DNA of 31,894 nucleotides, taken from IMG/VR virus record IMGVR_UViG_3300035670_007331, positions 1 through 31,894 of that record, one strand, 5' to 3'. The position numbers and the translations under genes are program-made. Positions 2,662 to 22,921 of this stretch are shown piece by piece; position 1 is the first letter of the stretch; every line of letters begins with the position of its first letter. This DNA comes from a virus. The notes beneath the pieces were generated by a model. The model was not told the origin of the DNA. It worked only from the letters and a program-made list of their open reading frames with translations, and ran no database searches.

Positions 2662-5411
2662 CAAACTTTACCTGAATTACTAAAAAATCTTGGCCAACGG
2701 CATGCCCAGTAGGAAGCCGAAGTCTTATCTTTATTCGTCAAACAACGGTGACGAGCGACAAAACTACGAGTAGCACCTGGATCCATATACTTTTTCTTCA
2801 TTCCAGACTGACTGAAACGAATCTTACGAATCGATTCACCGTCACGAACATAGACAGCACCGCCGCCACCTTCGCGCCATGGTTTACCGATACCCTTTCC
2901 ATCGGTCTTATCTTCTTCATTTACAGGAACGCAATTAGGAACCATCTTGTCGCCTTTCTTTTTCATTCCTTTTTGAGTATATCCTGACCAACAGGCTTCC
3001 TCTAAACCTTCCTCAACTGGGTAATCAAGAACAACAGTTTGACCCTCAAACTCAACGATTTCGCCGATATTTGATTCTAACATATCCTTTTCCCATTCGT
3101 TTTTTGGCTCATACTTGCCTTCAGCATAGAGACGCTTGGCTTCTTTGATCATTTCAAAGAACATATCTGAACCTGGACGGAATACATTTTCTGTGAAGGA
3201 GATTTTATTCTCTAGGTGATATTGAATGGCTTCTTCTAGAGTCACTTCCTCTTTAACAAGTTTAAATCCAGCAATATGGTCGCGAACTCTTTTGAATCCT
3301 TTTGGAACATTATGCTGTGGAACGCCGTCAATTACCTTTGTTCCAGCAGGAACCTGTGCAGGCACTTGACGCGGCACAGGCATAAATTTAAATCCTTTTA
3401 ATTTTTCTTCAGAAGTTAATCGGCTTACAACAGGCAAACCATCGCTAGTTGCTTTGGATGTATATGCTTGCGCCTTGACTTTACCAGTTACTTCACCTTT
3501 TTTGAGCGTTGGCGTTGTGTCGACGATTTTTTCTTCTTCTTTTTTTTCTTCGGAGATTTTTCGGAGATCAGAGAACTTTCTAGCAGCTCTTGGAATTCCA
3601 TCTCTATTTTCCGAAATCGTTCCATTGCATCCGCATTCGCCCTGGCATCCTCCACCGCACTCGCAGTTTCCTCCGCATCCACATGCTCCTTCTTTGACGG
3701 AACCCATAGCAGATCCTTTAGTTGTTCCCAAATTTTCGAAAGCATCATCAATCTCCTGTTTTTGTCCTGGCGTCATAGCAATAGCATGTCTACGATATTC
3801 GTCAGTTCCTACTAGTTGTCGTTCGAAGATAACGTCTAAATCGTTTTCTTCTCTTAGATCCTTATCAGCGGTGTGATAGGTTTTACCTTTGTTGATATAA
3901 GAATTCACACGAGCATGACCCCACTGTTGCGGCGTCGTTCCTGGGCGATGACCTGAGTTCCAAGCAGCAACTCCACGATTATAAACTTTACGAAGTGTTG
4001 ATACTGAAATTCCTGACTTTTCCGCTTTAGCGGCAAGAGAAGTATCTGCCTTTTCGACAACAACTTCTTCTTTAGCCATCATCTTACGAACAGCGAGAGT
4101 ATGCTTGCTAGGTTTTGTTTCAGAAGTTGCATCTCCTGGTGCTGGCTTATAAGCACGTGGATCTTTATCTGAATACTTTGACATCTTTTTCCAATGAGCA
4201 GCACGCGCCTTCGCTGTTGATGTGCTTAATCCAGAAACATACTTTTGTGGTAAGCCTGATTCTTTATCTTTGCGAACAGTTGGAAATTTCTTTTCTTTAA
4301 TTACAGTAAATGACTTTAGTTCAGTAGTTTCATTTAACTGTAATCCGTAATTAATTAATCGTTCTAATAATTTTTCAATTTGACCTGTAAATAATAGTTT
4401 TTCTATTTCACCAGATTCATTCAAATTAATAGAATTGTTAAATACAAAACAATCTAGTTTTTCTTTTAGTTGTTCGCTTCTGTACCACTTTTCTAATCTT
4501 TTGTTTTCGTTTAATGGATTTTCGCGAAGCGAATTACGAAGTTTAGATACTCTATTTGTTACTGAAACATAAACATTGTCCAGAGTATATCCTTCTAGAA
4601 TTTGTTTTACAATAATAATCTTTTCTTCATCAAGAGCACCATTAATTATAATGTTTGCTTTAGATTCGATAAGTTCTGCTGCTGAGCCATTTAAAATGTG
4701 TTCAACTTGAACTTCAGTTAAATCAAAACGTGAGAAAATATTTTTTAAAACATAATCCTTTCCGCTACCAGGACCACCTATTAAAAAAATTCCGATTGGT
4801 GATGTAGATTCCATTTGTAATCCTTTGCGAGTGTCATTCCACAAATCTTCTTTATGTTCGTCTGACATTTTAGGTGGCGCCATTTTAAAGAATGATTGTT
4901 TATCTTTTTTAGTTCCACCCTGGGCAAATTGTCTCATATTTGTGCCAGAAACACCCTTCATACCCTTACCCTTTTTACCACTATCAACTCTCTTTTCACC
5001 GAATTGTTTAACTTCAATTTTATCAAACTTATATTTTCCGTGTCTGCCTTCTTTACCATTATATGCATTTAACAATTTATGGAATTCGTCTACACGATCA
5101 GATGACGCATGAACAACTAAATGGCGAACTCCTTGAGAATGCAAATTTGAAGCGTGGTGTAATAATGTTGGTGCGTCTTTACTGGCAACTTTAAAGTTTA
5201 CTTCTGGTGCTGCGCGTTGAGCATGTTTTAATTTTTGTTCTGGTGTGAGTGGATTTTTCTTTGCATCTTGAGAGCGAGATAATATGATAGAATGCCCTGC
5301 TTCACCTGTATCGGCAGCATCTTTCACATGTTCTGCGAAAGCAGCATGAGCAGAAGTAAATGGATTGCCTCGTAAGAATCCTAGATGATGTACTTTATTT
5401 AATTTACTCAT
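2655..5411 (-). CDS. Giant mosaic protein: cytidylyltransferase-like, P-loop kinase-like, Cys-rich and phage-specific modules
   Basis: This is a 918-residue mosaic. Residues 8-200 form a cytidylyltransferase-like nucleotidyl-transferase domain: NPFTSAH is a variant of the T/HxGH motif, SRSQDAKKNPL and SSDRVDEF follow, and GVSGTNMR matches the family's S-x-T-x-x-R motif. Residues 205-365 are a P-loop domain with Walker A GGPGSGKD at 212-219, kinase-like and unusually AT-rich at DNA level. Residues 385-440 (QKYVSGLSTSTAKARAAHW) and 455-510 (GHRPGTTPQQWG) are modules I recognise from other T4-like phages. Residues 576-595 are a Cys/Gly-rich cluster with eight cysteines. Residues 745-805 and 805-918 (CWSGYTQKGMKKKG, ending SNSGKVWW) are further phage modules with paired cysteines. 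It overlaps the upstream gene by 4 bp. Domain calls are by motif only; the overall role is unknown, probably virion-associated. Confidence 0.85.
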   Translation of the reverse strand: MSKLNKVHHLGFLRGNPFTSAHAAFAEHVKDAADTGEAGHSIILSRSQDAKKNPLTPEQKLKHAQRAAPEVNFKVASKDAPTLLHHASNLHSQGVRHLVVHASSDRVDEFHKLLNAYNGKEGRHGKYKFDKIEVKQFGEKRVDSGKKGKGMKGVSGTNMRQFAQGGTKKDKQSFFKMAPPKMSDEHKEDLWNDTRKGLQMESTSPIGIFLIGGPGSGKDYVLKNIFSRFDLTEVQVEHILNGSAAELIESKANIIINGALDEEKIIIVKQILEGYTLDNVYVSVTNRVSKLRNSLRENPLNENKRLEKWYRSEQLKEKLDCFVFNNSINLNESGEIEKLLFTGQIEKLLERLINYGLQLNETTELKSFTVIKEKKFPTVRKDKESGLPQKYVSGLSTSTAKARAAHWKKMSKYSDKDPRAYKPAPGDATSETKPSKHTLAVRKMMAKEEVVVEKADTSLAAKAEKSGISVSTLRKVYNRGVAAWNSGHRPGTTPQQWGHARVNSYINKGKTYHTADKDLREENDLDVIFERQLVGTDEYRRHAIAMTPGQKQEIDDAFENLGTTKGSAMGSVKEGACGCGGNCECGGGCQGECGCNGTISENRDGIPRAARKFSDLRKISEEKKEEEKIVDTTPTLKKGEVTGKVKAQAYTSKATSDGLPVVSRLTSEEKLKGFKFMPVPRQVPAQVPAGTKVIDGVPQHNVPKGFKRVRDHIAGFKLVKEEVTLEEAIQYHLENKISFTENVFRPGSDMFFEMIKEAKRLYAEGKYEPKNEWEKDMLESNIGEIVEFEGQTVVLDYPVEEGLEEACWSGYTQKGMKKKGDKMVPNCVPVNEEDKTDGKGIGKPWREGGGGAVYVRDGESIRKIRFSQSGMKKKYMDPGATRSFVARHRCLTNKDKTSASYWACRWPRFFSNSGKVWW

Positions 5412-6550
5412 TTCTTTGCTCTCAATAGTGCGCTTCTTTCACGATTTGCTTTACTAAATTCTGGTCTATTAACAACCTTTAATCCATTAGCAACGAATCC
5501 TTCACCGCCTGATGGTTTGCCGCCAATTTCCGTTGTTACTCCGCCATGTGCAGTTTTATTTAAACTATCTGCAAGAAGATTGGTTGCGGTTTGCATATGG
5601 TGATGAATTTGAAATGATCGATCAAATGCTTTTTTATTAGAATCGATTTGAGAAACCATAGCGTCTCTTTGGGCGGCTTTAGTATTTTTTGCTTTTTCAG
5701 TTTTCACTTTATCTATTTCTTTTTGCCAACGTGCTTTTAAATGCTCTTTATAATCGTTGGTGTTAGGTTTGCTACCAGAATCAACTGTTGAATTGACATA
5801 TGTTCTTATATGAGTTTCATGACCGCTTAAATGACCATAATCATGGTCTTTCATAAGTTTTTCTGCAGAAGAAATATGCCCTAATATGGTTCTTTTAGTT
5901 TGTGCTGGTAGTTTAGTTTGTTCGCCTGATGCGATATGATTAACTAAATGTACATCTGAATGTTGTCTAAACTCAGATTGATCTAAAATCGGCGTCGGAG
6001 TTTTCTTAGGACCTTTTAGTTCCGAGTAAATTGCTAAACTGACTTTAGAACCCGCAAGTTTTTTACCTTCAGGCGAATCCTTTTTTACAGAGTATGATAT
6101 TGTATTTGGCGTATGACCAATTTTACCACCTTTCTCGGTTCTTGTTTCAGGAGTAGACATAAAGCCACCCTGACCTTCGAATTCTCTGTTTGGAAGAACT
6201 TTATGGGCATGGGCTAAAATAGTTTTCAATGGTCCAGCAACATATGGCTTATTGCCATGTTGTCTTTCAATATCGTCATTAGAGTAATTGTAATCTGATC
6301 CAGGACCTTTGTACTTAACTCCGACGCGCCCTTCTTTGTCTTTTTTAATTAAAACAGACATTTTATCGTCTATTTTGCGCGTCAATGGAGTTCGACCCAT
6401 CGCGACTCCACGAAGGGTAGTTAATGCATGCCTTGCTGCTTTTTGACCGTCGAATGTTCGGTCTGAAGGATGTTCTATGTGCTGAATACCGATTACTGGC
6501 TTTTTGGCTTCTGTAATTAGTGATTCAACAAAAAACTTAAATTTTTGCAT
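5408..6550 (-). CDS. DUF6267-like protein: degenerate ligase/nucleotidyltransferase-like fold with capsid-targeting-like N-terminus
   Basis: This 380-residue protein opens MQKFKFFVESLITEA, resembling the T4 capsid-targeting peptide (MKTYQEFIAEA type) that the prohead protease removes after L/I-x-E. Here I-T-E precedes the body. The order RKIDDKMSVLI, then GQGGFMST, PNTISYSV and VSLAIYSE parallels the K-x-D-G and later motifs of the phage DUF6267 family, which looks related to the ATP-dependent ligase/nucleotidyltransferase fold. The glycine of K-x-D-G is replaced (KIDD), so activity is uncertain. The second half is a His/Lys-rich helical region. A late-promoter-like sequence and a hairpin precede the start. 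Family assignment is by memory of the motif pattern and needs a profile search. Confidence 0.75.
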   Translation of the reverse strand: MQKFKFFVESLITEAKKPVIGIQHIEHPSDRTFDGQKAARHALTTLRGVAMGRTPLTRKIDDKMSVLIKKDKEGRVGVKYKGPGSDYNYSNDDIERQHGNKPYVAGPLKTILAHAHKVLPNREFEGQGGFMSTPETRTEKGGKIGHTPNTISYSVKKDSPEGKKLAGSKVSLAIYSELKGPKKTPTPILDQSEFRQHSDVHLVNHIASGEQTKLPAQTKRTILGHISSAEKLMKDHDYGHLSGHETHIRTYVNSTVDSGSKPNTNDYKEHLKARWQKEIDKVKTEKAKNTKAAQRDAMVSQIDSNKKAFDRSFQIHHHMQTATNLLADSLNKTAHGGVTTEIGGKPSGGEGFVANGLKVVNRPEFSKANRERSALLRAKK

Positions 6551-6582
6551 AGTTCTTCCACACTGCGGGATTACAGAACTAT
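6549..6582 (-). promoter_or_regulatory. Hairpin covering the start codon and SD of the 6550 gene
   Basis: The minus-strand arms ATAGTTCT (6582-6575) and AGAACTAT (6556-6549) pair perfectly over 8 bp around an 18-nt loop. The right arm holds the first two bases of the ATG and the end of the GGAAG ribosome site. Within the loop, TCC (6570-6568) can pair with GGA (6559-6557) and tie up the rest of the SD. RNA read through from the rml genes would therefore hide its own initiation site. Confidence 0.6.
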
Positions 6583-6587
6583 TTAGG
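6580..6587 (-). promoter_or_regulatory. Late-promoter-like octamer CCTAAATA
   Basis: The sequence shares the last six bases of the T4 late consensus TATAAATA. CTAAATA-like late promoters are reported for marine T4-like phages. It overlaps the stop codon of the upstream reductase and lies 30 nt before the ATG at 6550. With T4 spacing the transcript would begin near 6574, just past the left arm of the hairpin. The location at a module boundary supports the call; the sequence match alone is weak. Confidence 0.5.
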
Positions 6588-7368
6588 CAGATTTGGCTTT
6601 CATATTTGCTATTGCTTCTGCCAAGGCATGTCTAACTTCTCGCATTTCATGGTATGCAGGAATAACACATGTCGACCGACCAGCGGCAGTAACTAATTTA
6701 AATTCCTCATCAGTATACCACTGTGGATTAATACCCATCATATCAGCCAATTCATGCATATTGATTGAACCGCTATTAACCAAATTATAATAACCATTTG
6801 GCTCGCCTCGTTCGATCAAATTGCAGGCAACACGAACTGCCTCGTCTAGATCCGTTAGAGAATTACTTCCTGCGTCTACAAGTTTACCGTTTGCAGCATA
6901 ATTCGCGACCTTGAACAAGTAGTTTTTACGCTCATTTTTGCCTGTGAATGGCATACGAATACGATAGACTTGTGCTTTATCACCCAAGTATACGTCTGAA
7001 ACACCCTTTGAAACTGAATAGATGCTTCCGAAGTAATTTGGCTCAGCGTTGACGTCGGAAATTTCACCCTGATAAATGCATCCACTCGAAAAATGGCTCA
7101 TTCGAGTAAAAGTCTTAGCGCAAGCCTGTTCTAAAAGAATTGGGAAAACGACGTTTCCAGCAATAGTATTTTGTTTGTCAGACTCACATGCATCAACGTT
7201 TGGTGTTCCAGTCACGCCAGCACAGTTTACAACCCAGTCATATTTGTTGGTGTGTAAGATTTGAATTGCTTTATCGTTAGGAGATAACGTAACAACATGA
7301 CCTCTGGAAACTAATTCCTTAAAGACCTTTCTGCCAGCCCAACCTCTACCTACAACTAAAATGTTCAT
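6583..7368 (-). CDS. RmlD-like NAD(P)-dependent sugar-nucleotide reductase/epimerase (SDR)
   Basis: This 261-residue extended short-chain dehydrogenase probably reduces the 4-keto group of a dTDP-4-keto-6-deoxyhexose. The Rossmann motif is GRGWAG at 7-12, NCAGVTG follows at 48-54, SSGCIY gives the Ser/Tyr region at 94-99 and YSVSK supplies the catalytic Tyr117/Lys121. It is somewhat shorter than typical RmlD (about 290). It lies 2 bp downstream of rmlA in a three-gene operon. RmlD normally follows RmlC, which is absent here, so the product may be dTDP-L-rhamnose using host RmlC or a different dTDP-6-deoxyhexose. The family is secure but the exact substrate is not. Confidence 0.85.
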   Translation of the reverse strand: MNILVVGRGWAGRKVFKELVSRGHVVTLSPNDKAIQILHTNKYDWVVNCAGVTGTPNVDACESDKQNTIAGNVVFPILLEQACAKTFTRMSHFSSGCIYQGEISDVNAEPNYFGSIYSVSKGVSDVYLGDKAQVYRIRMPFTGKNERKNYLFKVANYAANGKLVDAGSNSLTDLDEAVRVACNLIERGEPNGYYNLVNSGSINMHELADMMGINPQWYTDEEFKLVTAAGRSTCVIPAYHEMREVRHALAEAIANMKAKSA

Positions 7369-7370
7369 TA

Positions 7371-8246
7371 TTAATACCTCGTGTGAATAATTTTATAAAG
7401 ATACTTACCATAATCTGATTTACTGTATTTGTCAGCTTGATTCTCAACTTGTTTTTGTGTGATCCATGATGCTCTATAGGCGATTTCCTCTGGACAAGCA
7501 ATCATGGTGCCTGTTCTTTTTTGGACAGATCCAACAAACACCGAGGCTTCTGATAAGGATTCAAATGTACCAGTATCGATCCAAGCCACTCCACGATTCA
7601 AATATTCAACCTTACAATCGTAGTCTTTAATATATTTGTTGATTACATCAGTGATTTCTAACTCGCCTCTGGCTGATGGCGAGATTTGATATGAATAATC
7701 CACGACTTTATTATCGAAGAAATATAATCCTGTGATCGCATAGTTTGATGGAGCGACTTTAGGTTTTTCTAAAATTTCAACAGGATCTCCATTCTCATTA
7801 TACTTTATAACGCCAAATCTTTCTGGATCATTGACATGATACGCAAATAGTGTACAGCCAACATGATTCCAATTGGCTGCATTAAATCTGTTAATCAAAT
7901 CGTTTCCGTAAAAAAGATTATCGCCAAGAATTAGCGCAACGTCATCTTTACCGATCCAATCAGCACCGATACGAAAACATTCAGCAATACCCTTTGGCTC
8001 TGGTTGCACGCGATAACTAATATTAATTCCCCACTGAGAACCATCGCCGCATAGACGCTTAAATGCTTCCACATCATTTGGTGAATTGATAATCAAAACG
8101 TCACGAATACCAGCCATCATCAATGTAGATAATGGATAATAGACTAGAGGTTTGTCATATACTGGAAGCAATTGCTTTGACGTGACTTCCGTGCAAGGAT
8201 ACAATCTCGTACCCATGCCGCCTGATAAAATAATTCCCTTACGCAT
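7371..8246 (-). CDS. rmlA: Glucose-1-phosphate thymidylyltransferase
   Basis: RmlA joins glucose-1-phosphate and dTTP to give dTDP-glucose, the committed step to dTDP-deoxysugars. The 291-residue length is typical. The nucleotide-binding signature GGMGTRLYP (9-17) is followed by SKQLLPVYDKP with the conserved Lys, and LGDNLFYG (about 107-114) carries the metal-binding Asp. GLYFFD and RGELEITDV later in the protein are standard RmlA blocks. The ATG at 8246 overlaps the end of rmlB by 8 bp, indicating coupled translation. The protein appears intact and catalytically complete. Confidence 0.95.
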   Translation of the reverse strand: MRKGIILSGGMGTRLYPCTEVTSKQLLPVYDKPLVYYPLSTLMMAGIRDVLIINSPNDVEAFKRLCGDGSQWGINISYRVQPEPKGIAECFRIGADWIGKDDVALILGDNLFYGNDLINRFNAANWNHVGCTLFAYHVNDPERFGVIKYNENGDPVEILEKPKVAPSNYAITGLYFFDNKVVDYSYQISPSARGELEITDVINKYIKDYDCKVEYLNRGVAWIDTGTFESLSEASVFVGSVQKRTGTMIACPEEIAYRASWITQKQVENQADKYSKSDYGKYLYKIIHTRY

Positions 8247-9195
8247 TACGATACCACTCCACTGTTTGTTCTAATCCTTGTGCGAGTTTACACTTTGCAC
8301 TCCATCCCAAATCCCGCAAAAGTTTTGACGAATCCATTGCATAACGCAAATCATGACCCTTTCGATCTTCAACGAATTTGATCCAATCTTGATACATATG
8401 AACTGGTTTGCCCATAACATCAAGAATCATTGAAACCATTTCAACATTACTTAGTTCAACTCCACCACCGATGTTATATCGCTCACCTTTCTTTGCTTTT
8501 TCACCAATCGTAAGCAAAGCGTCGCAGTGATCTTCAACAAACAACCAGTCACGAACGTTTTGCCCGTTGCCGTATACAGGAACTGGATGGTTGTCTAAAA
8601 TATGCCGAATAGCAGTTGGAACAAATTTTTCGTAATGCTGTCGTGGACCATAATTGTTTGAACAGTTGGTCACGATGGCATCTAGACCATGCGTGTTTAC
8701 ATAGGCACGAACAAGATGATCGCTTGATGCTTTCGTTGCTGAGTATGGATTGCGAGGATTGTATGGCGTTTCCTCGCTAAATTTATCATCGCCTTCTAGT
8801 GGTAAACTGCCATAGACTTCATCAGTCGAAATATGAATTAGCCGTCCACCATACTTCCGTACACATTTGAGAATGTTATGAGTTCCAAGAATATTTGTAG
8901 CCACAAATACATCATCACCAGCGATGGAATTATCCACATGAGATTCAGCAGCAAAATGAAAAGTAATGTCTGGGGTGAAAGTCGCATACATTGCCTCCAA
9001 CATTTCTAGATTGCAAATGTCGAGATTTTTACAATTCACTCGCCAATCATCCCAATAGCCTTTTAAATTATTCTTATTAGAAGAATATGAATAATTATCA
9101 AGAATAACAATTTCTTGAGATGGATATTTTTTAAGGTGAGAGATTACAAAATTAGAACCAATAAATCCCAAACCACCAGTCACAAAAGTTATCAT
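8239..9195 (-). CDS. rmlB: dTDP-glucose 4,6-dehydratase
   Basis: RmlB converts dTDP-glucose to dTDP-4-keto-6-deoxyglucose using bound NAD. The 318-residue protein has the Rossmann motif GGLGFIGS at 7-14, AAESHVDNS at 82-90, the family-specific STDEVYGS at 123-130 (catalytic Asp/Glu) and YSATK at 151-155 with the catalytic Tyr and Lys. NNYGPRQ near 180 is also conserved. An SD (GAGG) lies 4 nt before the ATG. It is the first gene of the rmlB-rmlA-reductase operon, and a CTAAATA element lies 39 nt upstream. All key residues are present. Confidence 0.95.
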   Translation of the reverse strand: MITFVTGGLGFIGSNFVISHLKKYPSQEIVILDNYSYSSNKNNLKGYWDDWRVNCKNLDICNLEMLEAMYATFTPDITFHFAAESHVDNSIAGDDVFVATNILGTHNILKCVRKYGGRLIHISTDEVYGSLPLEGDDKFSEETPYNPRNPYSATKASSDHLVRAYVNTHGLDAIVTNCSNNYGPRQHYEKFVPTAIRHILDNHPVPVYGNGQNVRDWLFVEDHCDALLTIGEKAKKGERYNIGGGVELSNVEMVSMILDVMGKPVHMYQDWIKFVEDRKGHDLRYAMDSSKLLRDLGWSAKCKLAQGLEQTVEWYRNA

Positions 9196-9205
9196 AAAGC
9201 CTCAA

Positions 9206-10207
9206 TTATAATCTTTTCAATAACACTCTTAAATATTTAGGTCCTTTATCAGAAGGTTTAGTTCCACGAAACTGAAAGTGTGCTTCGTATCTATGTCCAT
9301 TAATTGTTGCGTTTACTTTGATGTTTGCATATTTGCGACCAGGCTCAGGGTAAACATATGATTCTTGACTTAAATTCGTCACAGAAACTCTGTTTGTACT
9401 TTTGTTTATACCAACCAACACATCGTTTTCTGCTTTTTTGTGAATCACGATAACATTAATCCCAACAGCTGTCGCCAATATTTCTGCTAAATTACTTGAT
9501 ACCGCAGCATAATCAACTGTTCTTTTAGTGAGGCAAGCAAACTCTTTACCGAAACCGCCCATCTTTTGCCCATTAAAACCAAAATATTCGTTTATTTTAA
9601 TTTTAGTTTGTCGATTAGCAAAATATTCACCAACTGACGCATTCATAATATAATATGTCTTAGACATCTTTAGCGAGAGATAAAGTTTTTTCTGAGGTTT
9701 TGCGTTTTCATCAACCAACGTCAAGTCTGTTAGAGTAGGACCATCTGAATTGGTGATAACCAGTTTAGATCCATCAAACATAATTTGACGCTTTTTATTT
9801 TTACTTCCTTCTTCAACAATAGAATACTTTTTTCTTCTGTTGAATCCTAAAACTTTCTCCATTTCTTTAAGAACATCGGCATTTTTCAATCTATTATATT
9901 CAACACCGTTCAAATAGTTTTTAATGTCAGTACTTAAATCCGCTTCAAACTTAACACCGCCCTCTCCTCTTCGAGTTAGAGGTTTAAAAATGATATCCCC
10001 GCCGCCTGTAATTTCCAATACATCAATAGAACTAGACTTTCGTTCTTTGAAAACTGATTTAAATGCGTAACCTTTTTTCTTAAGATGCTTCTCAATCTTT
10101 GCTTTAGTTTCGTTTCTATCTTTAGACTTTATAATGATGTCGTTCTTTTTCTGCTCAACCAGAATTCCTCGATCTGCTGCTCGTATTTCTTTTAGGAGAT
10201 TGCTCAT
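9206..10207 (-). CDS. Unassigned phage protein, possible PD-(D/E)xK-type nuclease
   Basis: This 333-residue protein is not firmly recognised. The N-terminal 60 residues are strongly basic. Residues 61-100 include GGGDIIFKP and a Glu in VKFEADL. Residues 158-180 read TLTDLTLVD...KKLYLSLK, an acidic strand followed by S-L-K, which is the spacing seen in PD-(D/E)xK nuclease cores. A Gly-rich segment GFNGQKMGGFG is at about 210-220. The frame extends upstream, but the ATG at 10207 (MSNLLKEIRAADRG) has an AAAGG ribosome site about 11 nt before it and avoids a large overlap, so I chose it. It overlaps the upstream metallopeptidase-like gene by 53 bp. The nuclease idea is a weak inference; structure prediction would settle it. 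Confidence 0.75.
   Translation of the reverse strand: MSNLLKEIRAADRGILVEQKKNDIIIKSKDRNETKAKIEKHLKKKGYAFKSVFKERKSSSIDVLEITGGGDIIFKPLTRRGEGGVKFEADLSTDIKNYLNGVEYNRLKNADVLKEMEKVLGFNRRKKYSIVEEGSKNKKRQIMFDGSKLVITNSDGPTLTDLTLVDENAKPQKKLYLSLKMSKTYYIMNASVGEYFANRQTKIKINEYFGFNGQKMGGFGKEFACLTKRTVDYAAVSSNLAEILATAVGINVIVIHKKAENDVLVGINKSTNRVSVTNLSQESYVYPEPGRKYANIKVNATINGHRYEAHFQFRGTKPSDKGPKYLRVLLKRL
9234..9240 (-). promoter_or_regulatory. Candidate late promoter CTAAATA upstream of rmlB
   Basis: CTAAATA sits in the last codons of the upstream gene, 39 nt before the rmlB ATG, a spacing that would give an approximately 33-nt leader containing the GAGG ribosome site. The seven bases also encode part of Pro-Lys-Tyr, so the match could be coincidental. 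Confidence 0.35.
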
Positions 10208-16613: not shown

Positions 16614-17372
16614 TTAAAATCCTGCGTAGTATGCAGCACCTATAAGTCCTGCTTTATTTCCCATTTTTGCTTTATATAGATTAAATGGATAACTTGTTAA
16701 AAGATGCGACCACTCGTTCCAAGCATCGCTCACTCCACCACCTATAACAATATTATCTGGCCAATATAATCTATTGAGTTCATTTAAATATAAATTAACG
16801 CGCTGAGCATATTGAAGCCAATCCAAATTTTCTCTGGTCTTAACACTTACTGATGCGATGTCTTCAGCATTGTTTATACCACCAGGCATCGCCATTCTAC
16901 CAAACTCTGTATTAAACATCAGGGAACGATTATTGTATATGGCTGTGCCAATTCCAGTGCCGAGTGTAATCATAATAGTCACACCCGTCAATTCCTTCAT
17001 CACACCAAACTGTATTTCTGCTATAGCGGCGGCATCCGCATCATTTAAAGCACTACACCCAACTTGAAAGTAATCTTCTGCTAATTTAGCAAAATTTAAT
17101 CCAATCCATCGTGGATCTTTTGGCGCAGTTAGTAAAACATTATCCTTTACAATACAAGGCAATCCGAATCCTATAGCATAACAATTATTTGGCACATGTT
17201 CTTTTATGATCGGAAAGATCTCAGAAGGCATCGCATTTTTTGGAGTGTCAAAACATTTATAGTCTGTAACTTCTCCTGTAAGAGCATTTACAGCAGCCAG
17301 CTTAATTGCTGTGCCACCCACATCAACGCCAAGAATATTACTCTGATTCTGCTGCGTCACGGTTATTCTCAT
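16614..17372 (-). CDS. ROK-family sugar kinase, polyphosphate-glucokinase-like
   Basis: This 252-residue protein probably phosphorylates glucose (ATP or polyphosphate donor). The phosphate motif is VDVGGTAIK at 16-24, LNDADAAA at 109-116 carries the catalytic Asp, LGTGIGTAI is at 137-145 and NTEFGRM at 154-160. Overall block order and length match polyphosphate glucokinases such as PPGK rather than longer ROK proteins. The His that usually follows E-x-G in this motif is Arg here (EFGR), which may affect the sugar site. Glucose-6-phosphate could feed RmlA after host phosphoglucomutase. Placement beside glycosyltransferases supports a sugar-supply role. Donor specificity cannot be told. Confidence 0.8.
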   Translation of the reverse strand: MRITVTQQNQSNILGVDVGGTAIKLAAVNALTGEVTDYKCFDTPKNAMPSEIFPIIKEHVPNNCYAIGFGLPCIVKDNVLLTAPKDPRWIGLNFAKLAEDYFQVGCSALNDADAAAIAEIQFGVMKELTGVTIMITLGTGIGTAIYNNRSLMFNTEFGRMAMPGGINNAEDIASVSVKTRENLDWLQYAQRVNLYLNELNRLYWPDNIVIGGGVSDAWNEWSHLLTSYPFNLYKAKMGNKAGLIGAAYYAGF

Positions 17373-17544
17373 TATTTCGCTTCAATTTAAAACCAACGTG
17401 GTTTTGATGGGCAGCAATAAATGCCCGTTTGAAGGCTCCATATTCATGAGAATCTTTAATATATCCATAGGTTCTGCCCATGGCGAGAAGTTTCTTTTGA
17501 CTTCTTGGGAGTTTCGCATTAAAAAAGTCGCTACGATTAGCCAT
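17338..17544 (-). CDS. Small unassigned phage protein (MANRSDFF family-like)
   Basis: This 68-residue basic protein begins MANRSDFFNAKLPRSQKKLL. N-terminally similar small proteins occur in T4-like phages and have no assigned role. The sequence is helical and rich in Lys/Asn/Arg, with a loose C-terminal tail that overlaps the kinase gene by 35 bp. It overlaps the upstream glycosyltransferase-like gene by 8 bp. It is a real gene by packing and composition; function is unknown. Confidence 0.65.
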   Translation of the reverse strand: MANRSDFFNAKLPRSQKKLLAMGRTYGYIKDSHEYGAFKRAFIAAHQNHVGFKLKRNNENNRDAAESE

Positions 17545-18235
17545 TCAATAATTCCTCACACTTTTTCCAAAAACGCTCTTGTTGACCAGGATGGAAAATT
17601 TGCCAGCAGTGCCAAAACATATCTTCATCATCCTTACCGTAAGTTGTACCGATACCATAATTCGGCATGCCATCAGCCAAACGCCAGAATGGTTCACTTT
17701 CTTTTTCCCAAGCCATACGAATAGGTGGTGCATCATATCGTAATGGCATGAGAGTTTCAACTTCTATATTACTCTCCCTTGCTCGCCAAGTCAACTCTTC
17801 AGCAACATCACCACGCGGAGTTGGCTCAAAAGTTGGCTTTCCACATTTTTCGTATGTTTCAATTGTAAATGTGATATTATGAGCACCACAGAAAACGTGC
17901 TGACCATTATCAATATGATTGCTACGCTGAGCATCGCCCATGAGTTTTCCATTGTATGCACCAACAAACATATTATCTATTGCAGTGTAATTCAGTGGAA
18001 CGCAGTCAATATCTAGGAACATAATTGCGTCATGCCCACGTTCTTTTAGCATTGGAACAACTTGAGTCATTGTTGCGCCATGGGAACCATCTGTAAGTAG
18101 ATGATAAAATTGTATATTCGATTTATTGAATTTCGTTACAACTTGTCTCTGTAGTTGTACTGTTTGTTGATCAATATTGTTCATGAATATTGAAGCAATG
18201 CAAGGACGTCTTGCGATTAAAGGATCACCACTCAT
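17537..18235 (-). CDS. Putative glycosyltransferase, GT-A-like
   Basis: This 232-residue protein contains AIMFLDIDCVPL with a D-x-D at about 74-76, the metal and nucleotide-sugar motif of GT-A enzymes, following a predicted Rossmann-like N-terminal part. Similar proteins occur in other T4-like phages. It starts with a four-base ATGA overlap with the preceding gene, so it belongs to the sugar cassette. The acceptor and donor cannot be inferred; candidates are phage or host surface glycans. The moderate confidence in function rests on the D-x-D context and location only. Confidence 0.6.
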   Translation of the reverse strand: MSGDPLIARRPCIASIFMNNIDQQTVQLQRQVVTKFNKSNIQFYHLLTDGSHGATMTQVVPMLKERGHDAIMFLDIDCVPLNYTAIDNMFVGAYNGKLMGDAQRSNHIDNGQHVFCGAHNITFTIETYEKCGKPTFEPTPRGDVAEELTWRARESNIEVETLMPLRYDAPPIRMAWEKESEPFWRLADGMPNYGIGTTYGKDDEDMFWHCWQIFHPGQQERFWKKCEELLNG

Positions 18236-18936
18236 ACATATTCCCCTCTGAGTTTATACTTCAGGTTGAAGCGTTCAATTTTAAGTTTTGATATTTCTAG
18301 ATGTTGACGTAAAACTGACTCAGGGTGAAATCCCATGCCAGAATTAGCATAGTTGAATAGACTTGGGAAAAGCAAACAATACTTTTCCATAGAAGCATTA
18401 TCGCCGAGTGCCATCAGATCATTCAGACCTCCGCGATGATCGGATCCAGCAGGAACATAAATTGAGTCGGGAGCGAGTTCTTTAATTTGTGGAAACTCGT
18501 CAAACTGAAGATCAAAGCGCATACGAATCACAAGATCATATTTGACTTCATTTAATGACTCATAGTTTTTCATTAAATCGAATGCGCGCCAAACTTTATA
18601 GTACATGTAAAAAATATTTGGAACAATAGTTTCATGCGCCCAACTACCATCATATGCCTTGCGATTTTCAATTTTAACTTTAGACAACGCTTGCATTAAT
18701 TTTGAAGTATCAAAGTCTTCAAATGTTGCGAGTTTTGGACGAAATTCTCTAAGAACCTCGTCTACTGACATATCATTAGGTATGTATTGACCACGATGGT
18801 CTAGCGTATAATTATTCGGGAGCCATGTGTCGATAAACACATCAGCGTCGTATGGTTTAATTATATGTTCGTAAAGAGAATTGTAGCATTCTTTTGCATT
18901 ACGAATTTGCCCTGAAATCAATACCGCAGTTTTCAT
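18232..18936 (-). CDS. Glycosyltransferase-like protein, SGQ-R type
   Basis: This 234-residue protein begins MKTAVLISGQIRNAKEC, followed by ADVFIDTWLPN, the opening of a family of surface-glycan glycosyltransferase-like proteins found in bacterial polysaccharide clusters and large viruses. YDLVIRMRFDLQFD at about 130-143 may provide the R-x-D/D-x-D region. It is overlapped by 4 bp at both ends (ATGA junctions), so translation is coupled. No membrane segment is visible; action on a cytoplasmic precursor is likely. Substrate is unknown. Confidence 0.6.
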   Translation of the reverse strand: MKTAVLISGQIRNAKECYNSLYEHIIKPYDADVFIDTWLPNNYTLDHRGQYIPNDMSVDEVLREFRPKLATFEDFDTSKLMQALSKVKIENRKAYDGSWAHETIVPNIFYMYYKVWRAFDLMKNYESLNEVKYDLVIRMRFDLQFDEFPQIKELAPDSIYVPAGSDHRGGLNDLMALGDNASMEKYCLLFPSLFNYANSGMGFHPESVLRQHLEISKLKIERFNLKYKLRGEYV

Positions 18937-19385
18937 AAATCATATCTCTTTCTATAGTCATAAGAAAAATCAGTGCATATACCAATACACTGTGAAACGT
19001 CATCATTATATAGTTCTGGTAACACAGAAATGCTATTCTTTACTGGTTGTTTCCCAGGATATACCCAAAGATACCCTTTACTTGTTAGCGTCAGCGTATC
19101 TTCTTCATGCCAAAAGTAATGTAATTTGTTTGGGTCATTTTTAAAGAATAACACAGCGTCTATATTTTTGCAGTGAAACCAAGAAAACGGTGCAATAGAT
19201 AACAACCAGTCAAAATCAACTTCATAGTCTGGGTTATCATGACCTAAAATTATCCTACCCTCGATAACGCGAACATCAACTTCAACATTAAAGTTTTGTT
19301 CTATCGCTAATTCTAATTGCGCTGGATGATTTTCTGTGGTTGCATTCGGACCTTCTAATAATCCTCTATGGGCTATAATAATCAT
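18933..19385 (-). CDS. GDPD-like (glycerophosphodiester phosphodiesterase fold) protein
   Basis: This 150-residue protein carries IIAHRGLLEGP (H6, R7), TTENHP (E18), VEVDVRV (E35, D37) and LGHDNP (H49, D50). These match in order the metal and catalytic residues of GDPD enzymes, including both histidines. It is only half the length of full GDPDs, with a shortened barrel and FHCKNIDA following. Related short proteins occur in capsule and LPS gene clusters. It lacks a signal peptide. It may trim or transfer a glycerophosphate group in the glycan, but activity is inferred. Confidence 0.65.
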   Translation of the reverse strand: MIIIAHRGLLEGPNATTENHPAQLELAIEQNFNVEVDVRVIEGRIILGHDNPDYEVDFDWLLSIAPFSWFHCKNIDAVLFFKNDPNKLHYFWHEEDTLTLTSKGYLWVYPGKQPVKNSISVLPELYNDDVSQCIGICTDFSYDYRKRYDL

Positions 19386-20176
19386 AATTCCTCCATAGAA
19401 TATTGGATATCTTTGGTTTCATCAAAATATCCATAAGAATTTACATATATTCTCTTTTCACTGTTTGCAACGATATAGAAATCTCCCAACATTGAGCAAC
19501 TGACTATATCAAAATATTTTTGCATCAGTTCTTTCGTTACTTCATAGTCAGAAGGTATTTTATATGGATATTGTTCGACGCGCTCATGCATTTCAATCCA
19601 CTTTATACCAATTTGCTGTTCAACGAATAAGAAAAAATCGTGCTGATTGAATGGGGCATACTTTAGTGCGTTTTGATTAAACTGGCAATCATACATCAGC
19701 AGTTCTAACATTTTCTTAAACTTATCAGTTTTAGCAGCCATTATATGATCTGATGGATGATATCTCAAATACGAGATCCTTCGGAAGAAAACATCATTTG
19801 TTACAAGTTTAGTATCATCTTGCAATAACAATCTCATTATTGGCATTAAATCTGAATAGTATTCATCGCTTCTAATTTTAATTGTATATTTCGTTGAAAC
19901 TCTACTGATGCCCTTGAACGTAGACAGAAACTGCAAGTATCTGTTTTGTTTGTTATAAACTTTATCGAGTTTACTTTGCTTTGGTAATGGATTGATGTAA
20001 ATTTGTAGATTATCTCGCTTTATTGGTTCGAGATATTCCCTGATGGTGGGATGCGTCCATTTCGGATCTTCCCACGTGCTTATGATAGTGTTTATGTTTG
20101 GGTGTAATAAACACATCGTCATTAAATTACGATGTATTGGTCCTTGGATAATTATCGTGAAGTCGTCTTCGATCAT
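19382..20176 (-). CDS. WavE-like lipopolysaccharide synthesis protein
   Basis: This 264-residue protein opens MIEDDFTIIIQGPIHRN, with NTIISTWEDPKW following and IKIRSDEYYSDLMP near 98-111. The IIQGP, STWE and R-S-D elements in this order are typical of the WavE family, linked to LPS core synthesis in Vibrio and seen in other phages and giant viruses. It overlaps the gene before and after by a few bases. DNA here looks more AT-rich than the polymerase block. A glycosyltransferase-like role is inferred from the family. Confidence 0.7.
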   Translation of the reverse strand: MIEDDFTIIIQGPIHRNLMTMCLLHPNINTIISTWEDPKWTHPTIREYLEPIKRDNLQIYINPLPKQSKLDKVYNKQNRYLQFLSTFKGISRVSTKYTIKIRSDEYYSDLMPIMRLLLQDDTKLVTNDVFFRRISYLRYHPSDHIMAAKTDKFKKMLELLMYDCQFNQNALKYAPFNQHDFFLFVEQQIGIKWIEMHERVEQYPYKIPSDYEVTKELMQKYFDIVSCSMLGDFYIVANSEKRIYVNSYGYFDETKDIQYSMEEL

Positions 20177-20802
20177 CAGAGTTTTTCACAAATCCAAAAT
20201 CTTCTATGACCTTTGGTAAATAGATTAGTTGTTAGAGGCTCCCAATCATAACAGTGGAAATCGTGATTGAGTTCTTTGTTATCAAACCTATTATACAAAA
20301 ATCCATTTTCAATAATTTGTTCTTCAATCGCCGCCGCTGATGGGCGAGTTGAAAATTTACCCAAGTCTTGATCATAACCATCAACTTGATCTACCTTAAT
20401 TTCAAACTCAGGATCTTCGCTATCGCAAACTTCAGATTCAAGAAATAGTAAGTTAGTGTGTTTGGCTGCACATGCTAGATCCTGGCGCCAGTTGTCTAGA
20501 TGATATAACACGCCCCAATGAATAACTATGTCAAAGGTTCTTTCGAGATCCCATGGATTGTTTTGATCTATACATATTGTTTCGGCAGAAGGCATAACTC
20601 CCCTCAAAACATCTAAATGTCCGAGTCGACCATCACTGAAAGTAACTTTTGCGCCGAGTTGATTCTGTAGATAACGACCAATGTGACCGTGACCGCATCC
20701 TAGTTCTAGGATTGTTTTATCGCGAAAAAATGATTTTCCATACAACTTCTCGATGAAGTTGACTCGGTTTACTCTCCATTGAATATAATGATCAAGGAAC
20801 AT
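20176..20802 (-). CDS. SAM-dependent methyltransferase (class I)
   Basis: This 208-residue protein has motif I ILELGCGHGHIG at about 30-41, an acidic residue after the next strand (VTFSDGR), and FDIVIHWGVLYHLDNW as motif post-II/IV. These are the SAM-binding blocks of class I enzymes. There is no DNA-methyltransferase catalytic motif (no PC or DPPY), so a small molecule or sugar is the likelier substrate, consistent with the glycan cassette. It starts with a 1-bp stop-start overlap. The exact target is unknown. Confidence 0.8.
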   Translation of the reverse strand: MFLDHYIQWRVNRVNFIEKLYGKSFFRDKTILELGCGHGHIGRYLQNQLGAKVTFSDGRLGHLDVLRGVMPSAETICIDQNNPWDLERTFDIVIHWGVLYHLDNWRQDLACAAKHTNLLFLESEVCDSEDPEFEIKVDQVDGYDQDLGKFSTRPSAAAIEEQIIENGFLYNRFDNKELNHDFHCYDWEPLTTNLFTKGHRRFWICEKL

Positions 20803-22187
20803 TACTTCTTATAGTTTTGCAAATAATTTGTTAGATCTTCTGGTGTTCCCAGACCCCACATTCCTTCGGCTTCCTTGATGCGAACTTTCTTGCCGTCACC
20901 AATCGCCTCATTGAATACTGGGCAAACATAGAACTCATTGTTGACGCGAATGTTCTTTTCAATCATTTGCTCAGCATACTTAACATAGTCTGATCCCTTC
21001 TTCCAGAAGTAGATACCAACCGTGGCATTATCGCTGATTGGTTTCTTTTCGGCAACTTCAGCAACAAAGCCATCTTCACCAACGCGAGCATAAGACCACT
21101 TCGGATGAGTTGCTTTAAACGTAATGATGCCACCGTCAACACCTTCAGCATTGAAGGCATAGAGACATTCGTTGCTGTTCCATTCTACGAACTGATCGCT
21201 GTTGGCAATTACTAACTGATCGTCGTTATTAATGTATTCTTTAGCAAGCAGCGTGGTACAAGCAGCACCCTCAGTCACACCCTCAACCTGAACAATTTTA
21301 CAGTTAGGTGCGATGAGATTCAAAAGCACTTGGAGATTGTATTTCTCATAGTGTTCTTTTTGTACAATGAAAATATACTGCGCTTCAATGTTAAGATTGT
21401 CGACGACAACCTGAATCATTGGCTTGTTACGAACATCGATCAGTGGCTTCGGGAAAGTATAACCAGCCTGAGCGAAGCGAGACCCAGCACCAGCCATTGG
21501 GATTAGTACATTCATTTTGCTAGACTTCCATGGAATAGAGACATCTTTATATTCTTCAAGAGTATTGATAATGCGATCAATGGTCGTGTAGTTCAAGTCA
21601 CTTCGATTTTCTACAGGAACAAGTTTCGCTCCACTATCTAGTGCGCCTTGTCGACCGATATGACTGTCCTCAACAACTACGGTGTTGCGCGGCAAAGCAT
21701 TACAAGCAGTCATGGCTTGCCAATACATTTCAGGATATGGCTTCGTGCGTTTTACGTCTTCATTGCTGACATAGTAATCAATATATTCTAGAATGCCGAG
21801 TTTAAGAAGAACAAGTTTAACTGTATTGCGAATACTATTGCTGGCTACAGCGATAAGGTATCCGCGTTCTTTGAGTTCACGAAAGAAACCAACAAGTTCA
21901 TTATCAACTTCAAGTTCACGGAAAATATCAAACGTTGCTTTTTGTTTATCTTCCCAGACTTGATTGTGTTTACTTACAGGAAGATTTTTGCGCTGAGTAA
22001 GCATGTTGAGTTTCTTGGTCGTTGAAAGACCATCATATAAACTCAAATGTTCTTCTTGAGAGATCACAAACTCAGGACCAACAATCTCAAGCGCACGATT
22101 GAGTGCTTCATAATGAATCTCGCGGCTGTCCAAGAGAACGCCGTCGAGATCAAAGATAACTAGTTTATTTGTTTTTAATTTTTCCAT
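20802..22187 (-). CDS. Bifunctional HAD phosphatase-sugar nucleotidyltransferase fusion
   Basis: This 461-residue fusion has two halves. Residues 8-215 are a HAD subfamily IA phosphatase: FDLDGVLLD (D13, D15), VASNS (S116), a lysine in VKRTKPYP and VVEDSHIG (D174). Residues 226-461 are a nucleotidyltransferase: MAGAGSRFAQAGYTFPKPL with signature Gly and Lys, VIANSDQFV (D331) and GLGTPEDL near the end. The two activities would act in sequence, removing a phosphate then activating the remaining sugar phosphate, as in heptose activation, although the substrate is not determined. It overlaps its neighbours by 1 and 13 bp. A linker at 205-225 shows no break or frameshift. Confidence 0.85.
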   Translation of the reverse strand: MEKLKTNKLVIFDLDGVLLDSREIHYEALNRALEIVGPEFVISQEEHLSLYDGLSTTKKLNMLTQRKNLPVSKHNQVWEDKQKATFDIFRELEVDNELVGFFRELKERGYLIAVASNSIRNTVKLVLLKLGILEYIDYYVSNEDVKRTKPYPEMYWQAMTACNALPRNTVVVEDSHIGRQGALDSGAKLVPVENRSDLNYTTIDRIINTLEEYKDVSIPWKSSKMNVLIPMAGAGSRFAQAGYTFPKPLIDVRNKPMIQVVVDNLNIEAQYIFIVQKEHYEKYNLQVLLNLIAPNCKIVQVEGVTEGAACTTLLAKEYINNDDQLVIANSDQFVEWNSNECLYAFNAEGVDGGIITFKATHPKWSYARVGEDGFVAEVAEKKPISDNATVGIYFWKKGSDYVKYAEQMIEKNIRVNNEFYVCPVFNEAIGDGKKVRIKEAEGMWGLGTPEDLTNYLQNYKK

Positions 22188-22921
22188 GGCAACTTTCCAT
22201 TATATTTTTCTAGCATTGCCTTATTACCTCTCTCGAAGAAGTCATGTTGCACCGAGAGTCCTGTGTTACCAACACGATATTTTACTGTATATTCCCTAGT
22301 TGTGTCAAACTTTAAATTATTTTGCTTAGACATCAACGTACCTGCGATCACACGATCGATCTCAGGCTGACCTGGTTCGCGGAACTTACGATACCATATA
22401 GGAGAAATTTGAACTGCTAACATTTTATGAACCATGTAGCAGTTTACATCTACGAAATAATCTTCGGGATGAAGAACACTTGGCCAAAGACCGAGGCTTT
22501 CGCAATTATCCTCACAGAGAATGTTACTATCCTTGTCAATAATGTGACGGAAAGAAAATGCCCAGTGAAGTTGTTTTTCTTTTACAAGTTTAACAAGGCT
22601 CTCAACATGGTTCGGTGAAAGCATGTTGTCATCATCTAACCAGATATGATAATCGCCATCTGCGAAATAAGTAGCAGCACCGTACACACGGTGACCATTA
22701 TAACGGTTGACGCCTGTAGGATATGGCAATATCGCGATATGTTCATTACTAGGTCTCGGAAACTCTGCTGCCTTTAAAATAGGTTCTGCTTTTTCCCAGC
22801 GTTCTTTTCCATCAACTACAATGATGTGTTCAATGTTATCATAAGTCTGGCTGCGAACAGATTCAATGCACTCAGCAAGAAAAGAATTTCCAGTTGTTGG
22901 TGTAATGATTGATATTTTCAC
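22175..22921 (-). CDS. Glycosyltransferase family 2
   Basis: This 248-residue GT2 enzyme transfers a sugar from a nucleotide-sugar to a glycan. ISIITPTTGNSFLAECIESV opens the Rossmann-like donor domain, HIIVVDGKE supplies the first Asp, and YHIWLDDDNML has the DDD motif at 96-98. The start is GTG at 22921; there is no upstream ATG, and GGGA precedes it by 7 nt. No membrane segment is visible. It is the first gene of the sugar cassette and overlaps the fusion gene by 13 bp. Donor and acceptor unknown. Confidence 0.85.
   Translation of the reverse strand: MKISIITPTTGNSFLAECIESVRSQTYDNIEHIIVVDGKERWEKAEPILKAAEFPRPSNEHIAILPYPTGVNRYNGHRVYGAATYFADGDYHIWLDDDNMLSPNHVESLVKLVKEKQLHWAFSFRHIIDKDSNILCEDNCESLGLWPSVLHPEDYFVDVNCYMVHKMLAVQISPIWYRKFREPGQPEIDRVIAGTLMSKQNNLKFDTTREYTVKYRVGNTGLSVQHDFFERGNKAMLEKYNGKLPWKN

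Follow-up and report, generated by a model that had tools for sequence, protein, structure and literature searches.

A probable transcription-coupled translational switch at the start of the DUF6267 gene in a virus with T4-type replication genes

The window, meaning the whole 31,894-nucleotide stretch of DNA analysed, is a 31.9-kb virus record carrying T4-type replication genes (clamp loader, DNA polymerase, UvsX, and helicase), all of which lie on the same strand as the DUF6267 gene. Sugar and surface-glycan genes adjoin the DNA polymerase gene on the minus strand (16614-22921) and include ROK kinase-like, WavE-like, methyltransferase, HAD/nucleotidyltransferase fusion, and glycosyltransferase genes. 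The genes upstream of DUF6267 are co-directional with it, and a single weak minus-strand terminator-like site (7936-7922) was located between the rml genes and DUF6267. The features around the DUF6267 start were as follows.

6583-7368, minus strand: upstream RmlD-type nucleotide-sugar gene, the presumed source of read-through RNA
6586-6580, minus strand: late-type promoter CTAAATA, positions -12 to -6
6582-6575, minus strand: left arm ATAGTTCT, positions -8 to -1, not part of the predicted late RNA (sequence and arm exchange tests)
6574, minus strand: predicted late transcript start, +1 = G, placed by T4-type spacing
6557-6570, minus strand: nearly invariant core TCCCGCAGTGTGGA, which includes an SD-like GGA
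6556-6549, minus strand: right arm AGAACTAT, overlapping the SD region at its end and the start codon at its first two bases (sequence and folds)
5408-6550, minus strand: DUF6267 / phrog_455 gene, 380 aa

The minus-strand leader in the window reads CCTAAATAGTTCTGTAATCCCGCAGTGTGGAAGAACTATG. Read directly from this sequence, ATAGTTCT and AGAACTAT form a perfect stem of eight Watson-Crick pairs closed by an 18-nt loop, which confirmed the original prediction of a perfect 8-bp hairpin between the region next to CTAAATA and the SD end and start codon of the downstream gene. The late start proposed at 6574 also stood, whereas the span given for the element was corrected to arms lying within 6549-6582. 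The right arm takes in the first two bases of the ATG (6550-6548), A and T, and the 3′ end of the SD region; GGA (6559-6557) is paired with UCC (6570-6568) in the minimum-energy fold. With the C of CTAAATA set at -12, where it also lies in the late promoter predicted for phage Aeh1 (PMC1524935), +1 falls at 6574, immediately after the left arm. The TAA inside CTAAATA (6585-6583) also terminates the upstream rml gene. An intrinsic terminator was ruled out, as the hairpin is not followed by a T-run. A second CTAAATA, without a switch hairpin, was found at 9234-9240 on the minus strand, 38 nt before the start of the rml operon (ORF 8239-9195), and a similar sequence occurs in lineages L105 and L033.

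As a lone sequence, the hairpin is no more than moderately unusual. The window contains 32 hairpins of 8 bp with loops of 3-30 nt, against 21.5 ± 6.9 in shuffles; equally strong arm-to-start pairing arose in 0.22% of shuffled leaders; and the 46-nt element alone gave a folding z of -2.2. The surrounding 121-nt region folded at the shuffle mean (z 0.04), a value that is uninformative, and an Rfam search with the window and the local region returned no family above threshold. It is the comparative evidence that decides.

Relatives were collected by pooling motif-selected loci with loci sampled by the DUF6267 protein alone, the latter being added because the first set had been chosen by motif. 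In the pooled set, TAAATA was present 10-45 nt upstream of the ATG in 84 of 94 distinct DUF6267 leaders. Close orthologues conserved CTAAATA and a core, TCCCRCAGNGTGGA, but their flanking arms differed. Most core-containing leaders used CTAAATA as the promoter (L175 has TATAAATA); sister lineages without the core mostly carried TATAAATA within another leader sequence, often in the same geometry (e.g., AUAGGGU...ACCCUAU). Among the close relatives of the window in the tree, the arms were GTTCT/AGAAC (window), CATAG/CTATG (L002), and GCATAT/ATATGC (L124), and the pairing registers of the sister pair L175/L169 differed. Because the arms vary, a search of viral contigs for the exact arm pattern yielded no match. 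The original prediction had named retention of the promoter without the pairing in related genomes as evidence against a switch. When 36 representative lineages (<80% protein identity) were compared, 22 kept both promoter and pairing, with different arm sequences and a sometimes shifted register, and 14 kept the promoter with weak pairing (e.g., L003, L103, L161, and L210). In the 22 strongly paired lineages, the left arm ended between about -3 and +2, and the predicted late RNA therefore loses nearly all of it. Homologues from cyanophages and pelagiphages, at about 28% identity or below, provide a contrast and no support: of four that were examined, none had a late-type promoter at the start, and three have a start that overlaps the upstream gene.

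Across related contigs, CTAAATA stood 12-45 nt upstream of long ORFs 13 times, compared with 3.0 ± 2.5 for its letter permutations, among which it ranked first; a large part of these 13 is DUF6267 itself, and among the others are a structural-looking gene and the rml operon. Over the related contigs as a whole, the motif was rarer than its permutations (40 occurrences, compared with a permutation mean of 86). A late sigma factor of the gp55 family (phrog_234) was present in three sister-lineage contigs of 104-131 kb; none was found in the fragmentary core-type contigs. In core-type loci, the slot upstream of DUF6267 was occupied by either a 261-aa RmlD-type or a 294-aa epimerase-like nucleotide-sugar family, and the leader stayed with DUF6267, which suggests that genes may have been exchanged at this boundary.

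The core TCCCRCAGNGTGGA remained nearly invariant while the leader arms and the protein diverged, the latter to about one-third identity. Nine contigs of 33-80 kb each contained a single copy of it; it was seen only at DUF6267-type genes and had no Rfam match. A possible inner hairpin consists of CCGC (6568-6565), the loop AGT, and GTGG (6561-6558). The core changes that were seen (A/G opposite U, and the third loop base) keep this 4-bp stem, and no compensatory changes were seen within it.

Whether the arms covary was assessed by scoring the pairing of the ten promoter-end bases with sixteen bases around the start and exchanging right arms between lineages; column-wise covariation counting was left out because the pairing register shifts between lineages. 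Among lineages below 75% protein identity (n = 29), own arms paired at -5.39 kcal/mol and exchanged arms at -2.61 kcal/mol (p = 0.0002, the lowest value that 5,000 permutations can give). The difference persisted when exchange was confined to the same leader type (-5.39 vs -3.13, p = 0.0002), when only lineages below 65% identity were kept (n = 15, p = 0.0002), and when each arm type was represented once (19-35 types, p = 5e-05); at the coarsest arm clustering (6 types), it reached p = 0.034 only. Moving the left window 12-40 nt upstream abolished the signal (z -1.0 to 0.7, compared with -10.6 in place). Other TAAATA-type promoters lying 15-40 nt before starts at the same loci gave no significant difference (-1.92 vs -1.57, p = 0.10), in a control set that holds a few DUF6267 relatives and is therefore conservative. 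T4 gene e, the positive control, scored -9.5, the strongest among the T4 genes tested. These tests treat representatives as exchangeable, and the type-level and positional controls lessen rather than remove the dependence due to descent. The arm sequences, which differ between lineages and can pair within most of them, covary across lineages. Strong hairpins of the same design were also encountered on two genes of the control set with other TAAATA-type promoters: in L186 (2686-2718, CTAAATAGAGAATACCTATGGGAGTTCTCTATG), a hairpin whose stem has 8 bp, on a 420-aa gene other than DUF6267, and in L159 (4004-4044, TATAAATAGGGGT...ACCCCAATG), a strong hairpin on a 547-aa gene of unknown function.

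Folding predictions compared the accessibility of the start in the two RNAs. For the window, the start was cheaper to open in RNA beginning at 6574 than in read-through RNA (5.1 vs 8.6 kcal/mol), as the original prediction had anticipated, and the mean unpaired probability from the SD to the start rose from 0.08 to 0.59 when the RNA began at +1. Across lineages, the median opening cost fell from 8.8 kcal/mol (read-through) to 6.7 kcal/mol (late; p = 3e-6), and the start opening cost was 9.15 with the own left arm versus 7.04 with an exchanged one (p = 1.6e-4). The predicted opening was partial (mean unpaired 0.33 to 0.42), with no gain in some lineages, because the inner core hairpin, which touches the SD, stays in the late RNA.

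Translational control by a hairpin that is present on read-through RNA and incomplete on late RNA has been documented for T4 genes e, soc, 49, and I-TevI (PMC3014915, PMC2988022), and the gene e leaders of related phages likewise carry a late promoter in the left arm (PMC3014915). The layout of T4 gene e matches the one predicted for the window: a left arm that contains the late promoter and is missing from the late RNA, and a right arm placed over the SD and start. The distance from TAAATA to the ATG is 26 nt in T4 e, counted from its upstream promoter, and 29 nt in the window, and the leader of lineage L158 closely resembles that of T4 gene e (ATACCTTAT/ATAAGGTAT). The window differs in having DUF6267 instead of lysozyme, in belonging to another phage lineage, in using CTAAATA instead of TATAAATA, and in adding the invariant core between the arms. 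By description, the leaders of T4 soc, 49, and I-TevI and of Aeh1 mobE, which precede different genes, similarly hide the ribosome-binding site on read-through RNA; in I-TevI, the site is described as freed on late RNA.

In our preferred reading, DUF6267 would be controlled similarly. Read-through RNA from the upstream genes would carry both arms, and the hairpin would shut the SD end and the start codon and block ribosome loading; the overlapping late promoter would give an RNA from about 6574 that lacks the left arm and is translatable. The outcome would be a late, possibly head-internal, protein made only from its own promoter. We assign a probability of roughly 0.77 to the reading that the DUF6267 gene is under a translational switch coupled to transcription, as are T4 genes e, soc, 49, and I-TevI; the gene would then probably be translated only from its own late RNA, like the T4 lysozyme gene. 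All three of the start site, the translational effect, and the late timing of this switch are what we infer. Because a CTAAATA also precedes the rml operon (9240-9234), RNA reading through from there could itself be late rather than early, and the gate is more aptly described as one between late RNA from the gene's own promoter and read-through RNA. The e/soc-type arrangement originally proposed is supported by the arm exchange, with its late-only gate restated in these terms.

The stop codon inside CTAAATA raises the alternative of translational coupling, in which ribosomes ending rml at this TAA would open the hairpin and DUF6267 would be made along with the upstream gene. This TAA is the upstream stop in most core-type leaders, a few bases before the left arm or overlapping it, and a terminating ribosome could disturb the left arm in many core-type lineages. 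In sister lineages, however, the upstream stop lies at a distance of 4 to more than 100 nt, in genes that are unrelated to one another, which argues that coupling is not the shared function; the arms and promoter nevertheless persist in several of these lineages, and the left arm is positioned relative to the promoter. We consider coupling improbable as the explanation of the arrangement, and it could coexist with the late-promoter switch. The idea that the hairpin is a functionless chance structure beside a promoter draws on the frequency of 8-bp hairpins in the window and on the ordinary local fold, but it is contradicted by the arm exchange and the positional controls, and we give it hardly any credence.

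The core could instead be the main conserved element, bound by a protein as DNA or as RNA (for example, in autoregulation by DUF6267) and only presented by the outer arms. Its near-invariance beside diverging arms and protein, its single copy per contig, and the preserved inner 4-bp stem fit such a role, whereas the absence of compensatory changes in that stem counts against it. Sister lineages lacking the core keep the promoter, and several keep paired arms, which shows that the shared arrangement does not depend on the core; a reading in which it replaces the late-promoter switch therefore seems very improbable to us. A role as a second control layer added to the switch is also unlikely, though less so: located near the 5′ end of the late RNA, the core might be a hairpin operator for a phage protein, possibly DUF6267 itself. 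The T4 gene 43 translational operator, relevant to the core only, is another hairpin of a T4-type phage that is conserved and lies close to a start codon; in that case the gene product binds, and, unlike here, the hairpin contains no late promoter. If such a layer existed, one short leader would join promoter-coupled unmasking with protein feedback.

The nature of the DUF6267 protein bears on the need for such timing. Its AlphaFold model had a pLDDT of 89.7, and a structure search gave weak matches of which the top ones were all DNA ligases (best E 0.015, probability 0.96), whereas a PDB sequence search gave no match; the label "ligase-like" used originally holds only in the sense of a weak structural likeness. 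The invariant residues K59 and D61 sit where a ligase-type KxDG motif might be. A literature search on DUF6267 found nothing. T4-type head-internal proteins carry an N-terminal capsid-targeting sequence that is cut after (L/I)xE. The N-terminus of DUF6267, MQKFKFFVESLITEA, resembles a T4 capsid-targeting sequence (cf. MKTYQEFIAEA of IPII/IPIII), with E14 invariant and L12 nearly so, and residues 1-17 were of low confidence in the model. DUF6267 is thus possibly a head-internal protein, and this likeness to T4 internal head proteins would explain a need for late synthesis.

The arrangement is known from a handful of T4 genes, and here it is conserved and covarying in a gene that is widespread among environmental T4-like phages. 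It points to late, possibly head-internal, expression of an uncharacterised ligase-like family, for which the many natural arm pairs are ready-made compensatory experiments. Arm exchange at a late promoter, a sequence-level test that picked out T4 gene e, could locate such switches in other phages.
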